The notes beneath the pieces were generated by a model. That model was not told the origin of the DNA. It worked only from the letters and a program-made list of their open reading frames with translations, and did not search any database. Positions 17,132-40,149 of a stretch of 64,000 nt of DNA are shown here, one piece after another. This DNA is from a virus: positions 1 to 64,000 of the IMG/VR virus record IMGVR_UViG_3300030104_005320. One strand, 5' to 3'. The position numbers were made by a program, and so were the translations under genes. How positions within the stretch are numbered: position 1 is the first letter of the stretch; each line of letters starts with the position of its first letter.

Positions 17132-17809
17132 CTATGATTGTTGTATTTTGTTGAAGATTCTTTCTACATTTGATCCGTATATTGGTCCGACTATAATTCT
17201 TTGAGTATCTTCATACTCTTTAATGCCAGTACCGAAACAAATTACTCCAACTACTTTTCCTTTATGAATGATCGGCCCACCACTGTCACCTTGTATTGCC
17301 CAAGAGAATACTATGTGTCCACCTTGACCCATTCCCTTACCACAATATTTAGAGTTCCAGTGACGAAAATCCCCAGTTCCAAACCCACACATTTCTACCG
17401 TATCTCCAATTGGGACATCTTCAGTGCTAATTTCCATCGGCACAATGTCTTCAGGTATCAATGCACGAATTAACGCAAGGTCATTGAAACTGTCTAAGTC
17501 GTGGTTTTTCTTAACAATGACAGTACCATTTTGGGTAACTTCACCATTATTAAAATAAACCTTGAAAAGTGTATCAGATGAATTTATAACATGTGATGCA
17601 GTTAGAATCCACCCGACGTAATATCCTTCATGTTTCTCGCTATCCTCTATAAATTTTATGACTGTTCCGCTTCCAGAATATCCATCGCCCGAAATCTTTA
17701 CTATACTTGAATGGTAACTTGCAGGCTCAGACGCATCCCAGTTTTGGGCAGAAACTAAAGATGTGAAGAGCAGGCAAAACGCTAAAGTCGATAAAACTTT
17801 CTTTATCAT
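17132..17809 (-). CDS. Secreted trypsin-like serine protease
   Basis: 225 residues with an N-terminal signal peptide (cut likely after VSA, residue 21) and the S1 fold. The triad is visible: H73 in LTASHV, D110 in NDLALI and S176 in GDSGGP. It would act in the periplasm or outside the cell. It is a single-gene unit with its own TTGTGTATA-type promoter and a strong terminator, transcribed against its neighbours. Possible roles are superinfection exclusion or attack on envelope proteins; both are guesses. Confidence 0.85.
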   Translation of the reverse strand: MIKKVLSTLAFCLLFTSLVSAQNWDASEPASYHSSIVKISGDGYSGSGTVIKFIEDSEKHEGYYVGWILTASHVINSSDTLFKVYFNNGEVTQNGTVIVKKNHDLDSFNDLALIRALIPEDIVPMEISTEDVPIGDTVEMCGFGTGDFRHWNSKYCGKGMGQGGHIVFSWAIQGDSGGPIIHKGKVVGVICFGTGIKEYEDTQRIIVGPIYGSNVERIFNKIQQS

Positions 17810-19019: not shown

Positions 19020-19157
19020 ATGTCCAGAAGCCCGCTTTCAGAATTAGTGACAGATATTATTATAATGACTTTAATACTACTACCATTGATAGCCATGTCT
19101 TCAATTGGCATCTTCTGGCTGTTGTATAATGTATTCGACCAACTTTACGAACTCTAA
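19020..19157 (+). CDS. 45-residue membrane protein
   Basis: Starts MSRSPLSELVTDIII; a long hydrophobic stretch of about 30 residues. A strong AAAGGAGG lies 6 nt upstream. It is followed 9 bp later by the thioredoxin-like gene, so the two may work together in the membrane. Confidence 0.55.
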   Translation: MSRSPLSELVTDIIIMTLILLPLIAMSSIGIFWLLYNVFDQLYEL

Positions 19158-19166
19158 GGGGCAATA

Positions 19167-19511
19167 ATGAAGAAAATAATTACTATACTGGGATTCTCTC
19201 TATTTATGCTGGGGTGTTCGGCAGATACAGCCGATACTACAAAAACACAGACAACTGCTCAGGCAGACATAATGTATTTTGGGGCGACTTGGTGAGGCCC
19301 GTGTAAAAAGATGAAACAGTTGTTTCAAGACCAAGATGTTAAAAAAGAACTTGACGAAATAGACTTCCAACAGTATGATATAGACTCCAGACCAGACCTA
19401 GCAAAAAAATACAACATTCGCTCTATCCCAACACTTATAACCAAAAGCGGCCAAAGATACACAGGTTTTCTAGGTAAGGAAAAACTTTTGCAAATATTGA
19501 GAAAATACTAA
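19167..19511 (+). CDS. Thioredoxin-like lipoprotein with in-frame UGA: candidate selenoprotein
   Basis: Read through the TGA at 19293-19295 the product is 114 residues: a lipoprotein signal with lipobox LGC (residues 14-17 region), a spacer, then the thioredoxin strand IMYFGATW, UGA, GPCKKMK, and a cis-proline SIPTL further on. The UGA stands exactly at the first cysteine of WCGPC. A hairpin, TGAAAC/GTTTCA with loop AGTT (19312-19327), begins 16 nt after the UGA and fits the bacterial SECIS model. Most other genes here use TGA as stop, so the code is standard. A simple nonsense mutation (TGC or TGT to TGA) is the alternative. AAGGGG lies before the ATG. Confidence 0.65.
19311..19328 (+). promoter_or_regulatory. 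Candidate bacterial SECIS hairpin
   Basis: A 6-bp stem TGAAAC/GTTTCA with apical loop AGTT. The loop starts 22 nt after the UGA and has G as its second base, as the bacterial SECIS model asks. The stem is short, so this is weak alone. Confidence 0.45.
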
Positions 19512-20961: not shown

Positions 20962-21369
20962 ATGCCACACAGTTCAAACACTCTAATTGTAGATTGCGAT
21001 GGAGTTATAGCAGACAAAAATCACGGAGGCGACTACGCAAAAGCCGGTCCACTTCAGCATGGTATAGATCAAATCAATTCAATGTATGACATGGGTTATA
21101 CAATAAAATTGTACACAGCTAGATACGGAGACAGGGAATCAGGAAACATACACCTTCAGTATGAGCGAGGGTATGTGGAATGGATTAACTGGCTCGATAA
21201 ACACGGCGTTAAATACCACCATGCGTTTATGGGAAAGCCTGCTGGGGTGATGTATATCGACGACAAAGCCGCCCGTGTAGACGGAGACAACGAAGACGGA
21301 TGGAAACAGGTGTGGGACGAAATTAACAATCTAGAAGGAAAAGATAAATACGGAAATAAAATACAATGA
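20962..21369 (+). CDS. HAD-superfamily phosphatase-like protein
   Basis: 135 residues. Motif I is VDCDGVI with aspartates 11 and 13; motif II lies in LYTARYG; and KPAGVMYIDDKA supplies the lysine and the acidic pair. Such small HAD proteins dephosphorylate nucleotides or sugars. GGAG lies 9 nt upstream. The next gene overlaps by 4 bp. Confidence 0.75.
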   Translation: MPHSSNTLIVDCDGVIADKNHGGDYAKAGPLQHGIDQINSMYDMGYTIKLYTARYGDRESGNIHLQYERGYVEWINWLDKHGVKYHHAFMGKPAGVMYIDDKAARVDGDNEDGWKQVWDEINNLEGKDKYGNKIQ

Positions 21370-21791
21370 AAGAACAAAACCTTTTAAAATGGATTTCTAT
21401 AACAAGTATAGCTATTATCTCTCTGCTGGTTGCAGAGTTTAAATTCACTGCCTTTTCCTCCTTGGCATCTGCGGATATTACTTTTATCTGCTACGCTATA
21501 TTGTTACTGGGGATCAGTGCTATCTTGTTCAGTTTCAGGCAGGTTATGAACAAAACCTACCACATGAAAAAAATGAACGACCTATCTTATGTCGCCCAAA
21601 TGCTTGGGCTACTGGGAACTGTGGTTGGCATGAGCTATCTTTTCGCGTCACTTAGTTCGCTTGAAGACCCTGAGCTTAGACAAAAACTTATCACGACAGG
21701 AATGGCTACGGTACTAAATACTACCATAGTTGGTATTGTTTGCAGTCTTGTTATTTACGCATACGTAATATTCTTGAGGGAAGACAAATGA
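21366..21791 (+). CDS. MotA/TolQ/ExbB-like membrane protein
   Basis: 141 residues with about four membrane segments. The stretch LGLLGTVVGMSYLFASL and then MATVLNTTIVGIVCSLVIY matches the conserved pore helices of the MotA/TolQ/ExbB proton-channel family (GLLGTV.G and T..G). The large cytoplasmic loop of typical members is short here. It starts a three-gene membrane cluster. Proton flow is inferred from the family only. Confidence 0.7.
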   Translation: MKEQNLLKWISITSIAIISLLVAEFKFTAFSSLASADITFICYAILLLGISAILFSFRQVMNKTYHMKKMNDLSYVAQMLGLLGTVVGMSYLFASLSSLEDPELRQKLITTGMATVLNTTIVGIVCSLVIYAYVIFLREDK

Positions 21792-22351
21792 AAATTCCTA
21801 TTTGTTTTCTAGATATTATATTGATTTTACTGGTTTGTATGATATTACTGTATAATCCGGTAACAAAAAAAGAAGAGATACCAACTCCTCCTCAAATGGC
21901 AGAGTTTATATTAACAGTACACTGGGAAGCAAAATTGAACGCCGACATAGATACGTGGGCCTTAAGAGTTGATAATCCAGCTTCAATCACTGGCTTTACT
22001 CGAAGGGAAAACGATGTATTCATTCTTCATAATGACAACACTTCTAGAGAATATGGTCAAATCGACGGTGAAATTCTTGAAGAGGCTAGGGAAACGCTCA
22101 CAATAGAAAGAATAAAAGAAGGAGAATACATCTTTGCATTGCATGGATACAGAGTGCCGCCCGACGCTGAACCAGTAGAAGTCACGTTAGAATTTCAAAA
22201 GTCAAGACCTTACTCTCATATATTTAAAAAGACTGTAACAGTAATACACGACGAAGAGGTTCCTATTGTATCTTTTTACATAGATGCAGATGGTAATGTC
22301 AAAGACCTACAATTAGATCAAAATTTAGTACAAAGGTTTATAAACCAATGA
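21788..22351 (+). CDS. Single-pass membrane protein with outer domain
   Basis: 187 residues from the ATG at 21788, overlapping the channel gene. One N-terminal membrane segment (FLDIILILLVCMILL) is followed by an outer beta-rich domain. The layout recalls ExbD/TolR/MotB partners, but the outer domain is not recognised and lacks a peptidoglycan-binding OmpA motif. Confidence 0.6.
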   Translation: MKIPICFLDIILILLVCMILLYNPVTKKEEIPTPPQMAEFILTVHWEAKLNADIDTWALRVDNPASITGFTRRENDVFILHNDNTSREYGQIDGEILEEARETLTIERIKEGEYIFALHGYRVPPDAEPVEVTLEFQKSRPYSHIFKKTVTVIHDEEVPIVSFYIDADGNVKDLQLDQNLVQRFINQ

Positions 22352-22851
22352 TACCATTTATCATAAACTTATTCATTGCTATCATATGTTGCCTTGCTAT
22401 AATTTTTAGATTTAAAGACTTTACTTTGCGTTGCGGTATGATATTATCAGTTACGATTGCTTCGCTTATTAGTTTCTGGTTAATTACTTTATATGCCGGA
22501 AAACCTGTGGAAAAATCCTTACCTAGTGATATAATTGTCTACGGTCAAGCTATAGACATGAAAGAGCTAAAGGTATACATACTTTATAAAAAGACTAACG
22601 GAAAACTGCCTCCTACTTTGGTTGAATTAGACTATTCAAAAGAACTAAAAGAAGCATTAAAGAAAGGTCTTAAGGAACAAAAAGGAAAGCCTTTTAGAAT
22701 GAAGAAAGGAGAAGGAGAAGGCGAAGGAAAAGAAGGAGATGGACAAGAGGGAGATGGAGATGGCGAAGGAGAGGGAGATGGCTCCCTGTCTAACGAATCA
22801 GAAACTTGGAATATAATGCGGCTTCCTCCTCCAAGGTTGCCAAGTAAATAA
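22348..22851 (+). CDS. Membrane protein with Gly-Glu-rich tail
   Basis: 167 residues: two N-terminal membrane segments, a soluble part, and a tail of Gly, Glu and Asp repeats (about 125-148). It overlaps the preceding gene by 4 bp, so the three genes form one unit with the ExbB-like protein. Function unknown. Confidence 0.6.
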   Translation: MIPFIINLFIAIICCLAIIFRFKDFTLRCGMILSVTIASLISFWLITLYAGKPVEKSLPSDIIVYGQAIDMKELKVYILYKKTNGKLPPTLVELDYSKELKEALKKGLKEQKGKPFRMKKGEGEGEGKEGDGQEGDGDGEGEGDGSLSNESETWNIMRLPPPRLPSK

Positions 22852-27845: not shown

Positions 27846-28187
27846 ATGGAAGAAAAATACGTTCGATTTCAACGTAATGACGGGAAGATGACGGGTAAGG
27901 TTCATATACTTGAAGGTGAAGATACAAGATGTGAATTATTCAGTAAAAACGCCAACAAAAAGAAGTGGCACATGATCGGCCCGATCACGACACTCAAAGG
28001 TTTGTCATACCACGAGGTAGAAAAGCCCGAACAGAATAAGTCGAATCACTGCTGCGGAGCCTGTTTTAACATTAAAAAAAAGAAAAAGAAAAAGAAAAAG
28101 AAGAAGCTGGGGAAACTTCCTAAAGTAATTCCAACCAAAAGAGGAACCCCCAGAAATCACAAAAACAAATATAGATGGTACGAGTAA
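27846..28187 (+). CDS. Lys-rich protein between tRNA genes
   Basis: 113 residues. A beta-rich first half is followed by an unbroken lysine run (about residues 77-87) and a basic tail. CCGAC-like pair HCCGAC lies before it. AAGGAG precedes the ATG. RNA or DNA binding is likely from charge. No family recognised. Confidence 0.6.
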   Translation: MEEKYVRFQRNDGKMTGKVHILEGEDTRCELFSKNANKKKWHMIGPITTLKGLSYHEVEKPEQNKSNHCCGACFNIKKKKKKKKKKKLGKLPKVIPTKRGTPRNHKNKYRWYE

Positions 28188-28316: not shown

Positions 28317-28640
28317 ATGATAATTAAATTAACAGAAGCGGCAGCAGAAGAGGCAAAAAAGTACATCGAAGAAAAGGAAGAAAAGTATTTACGAATCGGA
28401 GTAAAGGGTGGCGGCTGTTCTGGGTTTGAATACAAACTAGAAGTCGGTAGCGAATACAATGACGAAGAAGATACACTATCCACCCAACACGGAGTAGATG
28501 TTGTAGTAGATAAAAAAAGTTCATTATTTTTAGAGGGTACTGTTTTAGACTACTATAATGATATTTCCCAGCGTGGTTTTGTTTTTCAGAACCCTAACGC
28601 TACTAGGTCTTGTGGTTGTGGTAGCAGCTTTCAAGTATAG
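28317..28640 (+). CDS. A-type Fe-S carrier (IscA/HesB-like)
   Basis: 107 residues with the three conserved cysteines: C34 in GGCSGF and C99, C101 in SCGCGSSF. Family members hold and pass on iron-sulfur clusters. A phage copy might support phage or host Fe-S enzymes under infection. AAAGGA precedes the ATG. Confidence 0.85.
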   Translation: MIIKLTEAAAEEAKKYIEEKEEKYLRIGVKGGGCSGFEYKLEVGSEYNDEEDTLSTQHGVDVVVDKKSSLFLEGTVLDYYNDISQRGFVFQNPNATRSCGCGSSFQV

Positions 28641-39519: not shown

Positions 39520-39632
39520 TTACTGTTTTATCATGTGGACAATGCTGGCTTGGTATATCCCAGATATTAACCTTAGCCTTGATTTTTAGCGGGTCTGCTG
39601 TATATTGGATTAAAGAATTTTTTAAAAAGTAG
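39516..39632 (+). CDS. 38-residue membrane protein
   Basis: Starts MITVLSCGQCWLG, overlapping the previous stop. One membrane segment and a Lys-rich end. The tmRNA promoter lies within its 3' half. No further evidence. Confidence 0.45.
   Translation: MITVLSCGQCWLGISQILTLALIFSGSAVYWIKEFFKK
39579..39606 (+). promoter_or_regulatory. Promoter of the tmRNA
   Basis: TTGATT (39579-39584), 16 bp, TATATT (39601-39606), a reasonable sigma-70 promoter 25-30 bp before the acceptor piece. Confidence 0.5.
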
Positions 39633-39826
39633 CATGGCAGTTTGCCTGCCTAAACATGTAGATGTTATTATTGATGTTGTGACGGACGCGGGGGCAGTAC
39701 CCGCCACCTCCACTTCCCAGTCAAACGCTAGGGGGGTGAAACAGATTCGACGTGCGGCGTGATATAATAATTGCATGTGTTGGTTGATCTAAGGGCCAAC
39801 TAAAAAATAGATCAAAACTTTTAAAT

Positions 39827-39856
39827 GCTGAACCTTGTTTAGCTTTGGCTGCGTAA
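39827..39856 (+). other. tmRNA tag reading frame
   Basis: GCT resume codon after TTAAAT, then codons for AEPCLALAA and TAA. The LALAA end is typical of degradation tags read by ClpXP. Confidence 0.8.
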
Positions 39857-39873
39857 AAACAGTCCGGGGGGTT

Positions 39874-39905
39874 GCCCGCCCTTGCTATCCAAACGGGCTT
39901 TTATT
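39874..39905 (+). terminator. Terminator of the tmRNA
   Basis: GCCCG pairs with CGGGC across a 15-nt loop and is followed by TTTTATT. It overlaps the 3' end of the convergent 39901 gene. Confidence 0.55.
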
Positions 39906-40149
39906 CACATATTGAGAGGTTTGTTATAATGCTTCCGTTTTTGTCAAATTCTACAGGATTATCCAACACCCATTGATCTACACATTCTTTATGAAGAAAT
40001 GTCTCACCGGACAGTATAGACAGCATCCTAGCCACTAGAGGCTCGCTATACACCATTTTTTGCTCGCACTGGATACAGTTCGGGCTTGATTTAATCAAGA
40101 ATAACAAGCATACTACAGCAATAACTATATAGACCATGTATTTTTTCAT
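39901..40149 (-). CDS. Membrane-anchored Cys protein
   Basis: 82 residues: one N-terminal membrane segment, then CIQCEQKMVYSEP and HKECVDQW, two zinc or disulfide pairs. The same pattern (C..C, then H..EC) occurs in the 47209 product, so the two may be related. GAGGAGACG precedes the ATG. Transcribed opposite to its neighbours. Confidence 0.6.
   Translation of the reverse strand: MKKYMVYIVIAVVCLLFLIKSSPNCIQCEQKMVYSEPLVARMLSILSGETFLHKECVDQWVLDNPVEFDKNGSIITNLSICE

Follow-up and report, generated by a model that had tools for sequence, protein, structure and literature searches.

Selenocysteine (Sec) is a costly amino acid whose use requires four dedicated genes. Thioredoxins of the PF00085 family with Sec in a UxxC motif are among the characterised prokaryotic selenoproteins (PMC13188914, PMC9312934), and the Global Ocean Sampling selenoproteome includes the UxxC protein 'Trx-like 1' (PMC2398784). 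Genes for the Sec transfer RNA (tRNA-Sec) are known from huge wastewater phages and suggest phage use of Sec decoding, and the available part of that report describes no selenoprotein gene for these phages (PMC10747093). Here we analysed a 64-kb stretch of DNA (the window), the first part of a 115,903-bp virus record from IMG/VR, in which the gene at 19167-19511 is a candidate phage selenoprotein of the thioredoxin type, well supported though unproven. It is quite probable that its in-frame UGA is decoded as Sec by the host, following a lineage-specific conversion from cysteine. A preliminary description of the window had stated that few phage selenoproteins are known; in keeping with this, phages are unmentioned in the selenoprotein reviews searched, and no description of a phage selenoprotein gene was found in the literature, with subscription journals and preprints largely outside its coverage, so that priority is not established. 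The features of the candidate gene are as follows.

19156..19161, + strand: Shine-Dalgarno-like AAGGGG, read from the sequence, with the ATG 5 nt downstream
19167..19511, + strand: candidate selenocysteine thioredoxin gene, 114 residues if UGA43 is Sec
19167..19217, + strand: N-terminal hydrophobic signal with a lipobox-like MLGC end (Cys17), assigned by eye
19293..19295, + strand: in-frame TGA at the nucleophilic Cys position (W-U-G-P-C), from sequence and alignment
19302..19304, + strand: TGT codon of Cys46, the resolving cysteine in UGPC, from sequence
19312..19327, + strand: hairpin resembling a selenocysteine insertion sequence (SECIS), TGAAAC-AGTT-GTTTCA, 6 bp, with G second in the loop
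19428..19430, + strand: cis-Pro88 codon of the thioredoxin fold, intact downstream of the UGA

The frame translates as MKKIITILGFSLFMLGC...YFGATW-U-GPCKKMKQLFQ...RKY, with a single TGA as codon 43. As the preliminary description had proposed, reading through this one TGA yields a protein with a thioredoxin core: it matches Pfam Thioredoxin PF00085 (2.9e-15) as well as PF13098, and AlphaFold predicts a thioredoxin fold (core pLDDT ~93-98) with residue 43 directly before the helix 44-53. The cis-proline and the resolving cysteine of the family are both present, and the nearest solved structures are ordinary thioredoxins. The segment downstream of the TGA still matches thioredoxin on its own, and its 71 codons carry no further disruption. 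The hydrophobic N-terminal segment ends in MLGC at residues 14-17, which resembles a lipobox by eye and suggests export and lipid anchoring of the protein. Like bacterial Sec-thioredoxins, the gene has a thioredoxin domain, a UGA where CxxC has its N-terminal Cys and a hairpin past the UGA inside the coding sequence; unlike them, it is phage-encoded, carries a putative N-terminal membrane or lipoprotein signal and belongs to a Cys-using lineage.

Related phages have an intact Cys thioredoxin at the syntenic locus, between the same small neighbouring genes, with the motif WCPPC (L181), WCSPC (L165, L166, L179), WCTPC (L183) or WCDPC (L267). The UGA aligns to Cys in all six relatives, which bears out the earlier assignment to the nucleophilic position. 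In a six-frame scan of the record, UGA43 was the sole UGA within a real gene to align uniformly (6/6) to the Cys of relatives; antisense and off-frame UGA/Cys alignments from that scan were taken as noise. The window thioredoxin shares 37-46% identity with these orthologues and the neighbouring genes ~30-65%, so the thioredoxin is roughly as diverged as its neighbours. Selection on the window gene could be compared only with distant Cys orthologues, for which the synonymous divergence is saturated. The contigs closest to the window phage, L163 (92%) and L184 (99%), do not extend over the gene. Because the same-locus orthologues of related phages have Cys, the UGA is the derived state in the window lineage, produced by conversion of Cys to Sec or else by a nonsense mutation. 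The syntenic Cys thioredoxins (L165, L179, L181, L183, L267) resemble the window gene in position and fold, and differ from it in having Cys and in lacking a SECIS-like hairpin.

IMG/VR was scanned with two DNA patterns built around W-UGA-GPC, and wrong-frame matches were removed, among them about 8 of the 27 matches of the first pattern, which were due to chance. The scan gave 28 viral contigs with 22 distinct thioredoxins of the type KPIFIDFYATW-UGA-GPCKM, all with UGA at the same residue as the window gene; Cys members of this family would be missed because the patterns include UGA. The larger contigs are T4-like phages with gp23, sheath, tube, gp32, UvsX, PolB and B12-type ribonucleotide reductase. 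Downstream of the UGA the family is under purifying selection (ratio of nonsynonymous to synonymous substitution rates ~0.25). G070, a near-complete marine T4-like phage of 113,475 bp with gp23, sheath, gp32, UvsX and PolB, has a tRNA-Sec gene alongside its UGA thioredoxin (anticodon TCA, 103633-103723; Rfam 69.4 bits, also called by ARAGORN; also given as 103633-103727, which is L292:3633-3727); SelD was sought in G070 and is absent. G070 is the best case for selenoprotein synthesis by a phage, and the UGA of the T4-like family is almost certainly decoded as Sec. These thioredoxins (L030-L097, G070) share with the window gene a phage-encoded UGPC motif, the same hairpin spacing and an AGNU loop, and differ from it in having no evident signal peptide, in their thioredoxin branch and phage lineage, and in that a tRNA-Sec is encoded by at least one phage of this group, and by the window phage not. 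The B12-dependent class of ribonucleotide reductase requires a dithiol reductant. Since the T4-like thioredoxin has no evident signal and is found in a genome with such a reductase, it may supply nucleotide synthesis.

A further group, TlpA-like IASFATW-UGA-GPC proteins in which UGA takes the position of the first CGPC cysteine, was found on five more contigs (L029, L038, L040, L053, L055). G017 shares T4-like replication genes and G001 has gp23, and G010 and G019 showed only a deformylase match; apart from G017 and G001, these count only as possible phage contigs. Separately, a tRNA-Sec pattern matched at least 120 stretches of IMG/VR (L301-L420), and ARAGORN called SeC at about 57 of them, or 64 when seven bacterial control loci are counted in; some of the matches may be long-armed odd tRNAs.

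The hairpin that the preliminary description had reported, with six base pairs and the loop AGUU, was located at 19312-19327. It begins 16 nt past the TGA, pairs perfectly and is the minimum-energy structure of its stretch, and the G in its apical loop makes it a putative SECIS element. A Watson-Crick hairpin of at least 6 bp with a loop G lies downstream of 1.9% of codons in the phage, and when the window peptide is recoded synonymously, such a hairpin arises in 4.8% of cases; by itself the window hairpin therefore carries less weight. In the T4-like family the hairpin likewise starts 16 nt past the UGA and has 6 bp with a loop that is mostly AGGU or AGUU, and the window hairpin occupies identical columns with different stem bases. 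When the window is aligned jointly with that family, 92% of the cells pair and no slid register comes close; both sides have changed in three of the six pairs, which at most 2 of 500 shuffles reach. The hairpin thus has covariation support when pooled with the T4-like family. Of 35 distinct phage and bacterial UGA frames, 21 have a stem of at least five Watson-Crick pairs with the loop G in place. By the same measure, 1 of 25 Cys phage thioredoxins had five or more pairs and none had six, the number in the window.

Similar UGA frames were detected in Neomarinimicrobiota, Planctomycetota and others by a single scan of GTDB genomes; many bacterial pattern matches were chance hits in the wrong frame and were removed. 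SelB above the curated cut-off was present in 9 of 10 bacterial genomes with UGA frames versus 2 of 14 controls, and tRNA-Sec in 7 of 10 versus 5 of 14. One bacterial frame (L104) was set aside as probably a broken gene, being short and lying in a genome that has no SelB above the cut-off. SelB was found in 53 of 80 Neomarinimicrobiota genomes, and among the tRNA-Sec genes compared, that of G070 was most similar (76%) to one from a Neomarinimicrobiota genome. These are hints of a Neomarinimicrobiota host for the T4-like group only, and not for the window phage.

Several results count against Sec decoding of the window gene. The preliminary description had proposed a search for selA, selB, selC and selD in host or phage; selB, selD and tRNA-Sec were not found in the window phage record (selA was not searched). 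A search for the host through likeness of the tmRNA and terminase to isolates reached none. Because the record lacks selB, selD and tRNA-Sec and a Sec-decoding host is only inferred, the gene is placed as a candidate. The window gene is a single sequence, every orthologue found in its own phage lineage has Cys, and no second UGA copy with its YFGA-x-W-UGA frame was found in IMG/VR. The stability of the hairpin is at the level of shuffled sequence (z -0.03) and was dropped as evidence, and the exact register, with G-U pairs allowed, arises in 19% of synonymous recodings, so the peptide itself favours it. A covariance model that was based only on the T4-like hairpins missed the one in the window; this miss is not informative, as the model also overlooks four members of its own wider family. 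Finally, the T4-like thioredoxins belong to a different branch from the window thioredoxin and serve as an analogy, not as orthologues. The strongest support for Sec in the window gene, which comes from that family and the other UGA frames, is indirect.

A recent nonsense mutation, by which the nucleophile codon was lost and the gene is a young pseudogene or only its first 42 residues are made, would agree with the Cys of all lineage relatives, with the single transversion that separates TGT or TGC from TGA, and with a single sequence whose decoding in the host is unproven. But only 1 of the 49 single-base changes that create a stop in this gene would hit the nucleophilic Cys, and the hairpin would be needed besides; the 71 downstream codons are otherwise undisturbed, the hairpin stands in the register of a UGA family under selection and has no 6-bp counterpart in the 25 Cys thioredoxins, and the second residue of the motif (GPC) differs from that of every lineage relative (P, S, T or D before PC). 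We therefore regard a nonsense mutation as unlikely, though it is the most serious of the alternatives. That the TGA at 19293-19295 is an error of sequencing or assembly within an ordinary Cys gene would agree with the site being known from one assembled contig, but the site lies outside a homopolymer, and a random error would rarely fall on this codon with a SECIS-like hairpin downstream; such an error is very improbable. The frame would also be open whichever residue the TGA encodes, as by a reassigned code or a suppressor tRNA. However, TGA ends 45 of the 135 automatic open reading frames of at least 90 residues in the record (TAA 68, TAG 22), the tRNAs of the record are Ile, Met and Arg only, together with a tmRNA, and Trp at this site would give WWGPC, which has no nucleophile. 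TGA is thus an ordinary stop here, as the preliminary description had held, code reassignment was ruled out because it is a common one, and a non-Sec route is scarcely credible. Homologues with UGA, with Sec-type hairpins and with Cys at this site were all found, and the interpretation of the UGA as Sec in the preliminary description is supported.

If the UGA is read as Sec, the gene would encode a thiol-disulphide oxidoreductase of the thioredoxin type, targeted to the membrane and with Sec as the nucleophile, derived from a Cys thioredoxin that is kept at the same locus in related phages. In an infected Sec-decoding bacterium, the host SelB with its Sec-tRNA-Sec would bind the hairpin at 19312-19327 and Sec would be inserted at 19293-19295, giving a UGPC active site; without Sec decoding, translation would end after 42 residues. 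Pairs of SECIS and SelB can be specific to a species. The enzyme would be anchored in the membrane and redox-active outside the cytoplasm, and its role for the phage, for example in handling envelope disulphides during infection or lysis, is a guess. It also seems reasonably likely that phage thioredoxins acquired Sec on at least two independent occasions (the lipoprotein-like and the T4-like, with the TlpA-like UGA proteins as a further family), that some phages bring tRNA-Sec, and that the full-length enzyme can be made only in Sec-decoding hosts, which together would give marine phages a selenoprotein repertoire of their own. If this is true, a phage gene in need of host Sec decoding would link viral fitness to host selenium metabolism and provide a genomic marker for assigning hosts of uncultured phages, and such viral genes would be truncated by standard gene callers. 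The idea is open to direct testing in the T4-like phage that has a UGA thioredoxin as well as tRNA-Sec.

The record comes from a tailed phage, as shown by terminase and head-protease matches. Its terminase shares only ~22-31% identity with those of isolates, and megablast of a 25-kb stretch of the record gave no match, with no named phage close. Terminase relatives are abundant in IMG/VR: they number at least 598 stretches, and identity is 78-100% among the best 80. The ribonucleotide reductase of the window phage is nearest to those of marine T4-like phages, and from this company the phage is probably marine. A permuted tmRNA gene of the alphaproteobacterial type lies at 39620-39947, with a short predicted tag and unmatched in named phages. 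At 17132-17809 on the minus strand, a trypsin-like protease with a signal-like N-terminus is conserved near the same locus in relatives. The genes at 21366-22851 encode a MotA/TolQ/ExbB-like channel protein and, after it, two apparent membrane proteins, of which one has a long low-complexity stretch of Gly, Glu and Asp; together they look like a phage-borne proton-channel operon. The window also contains a phage gene for a HesB/IscA-type Fe-S assembly protein (28317-28640) and, at 27846-28187, one whose small protein product has about eleven lysines in a row.
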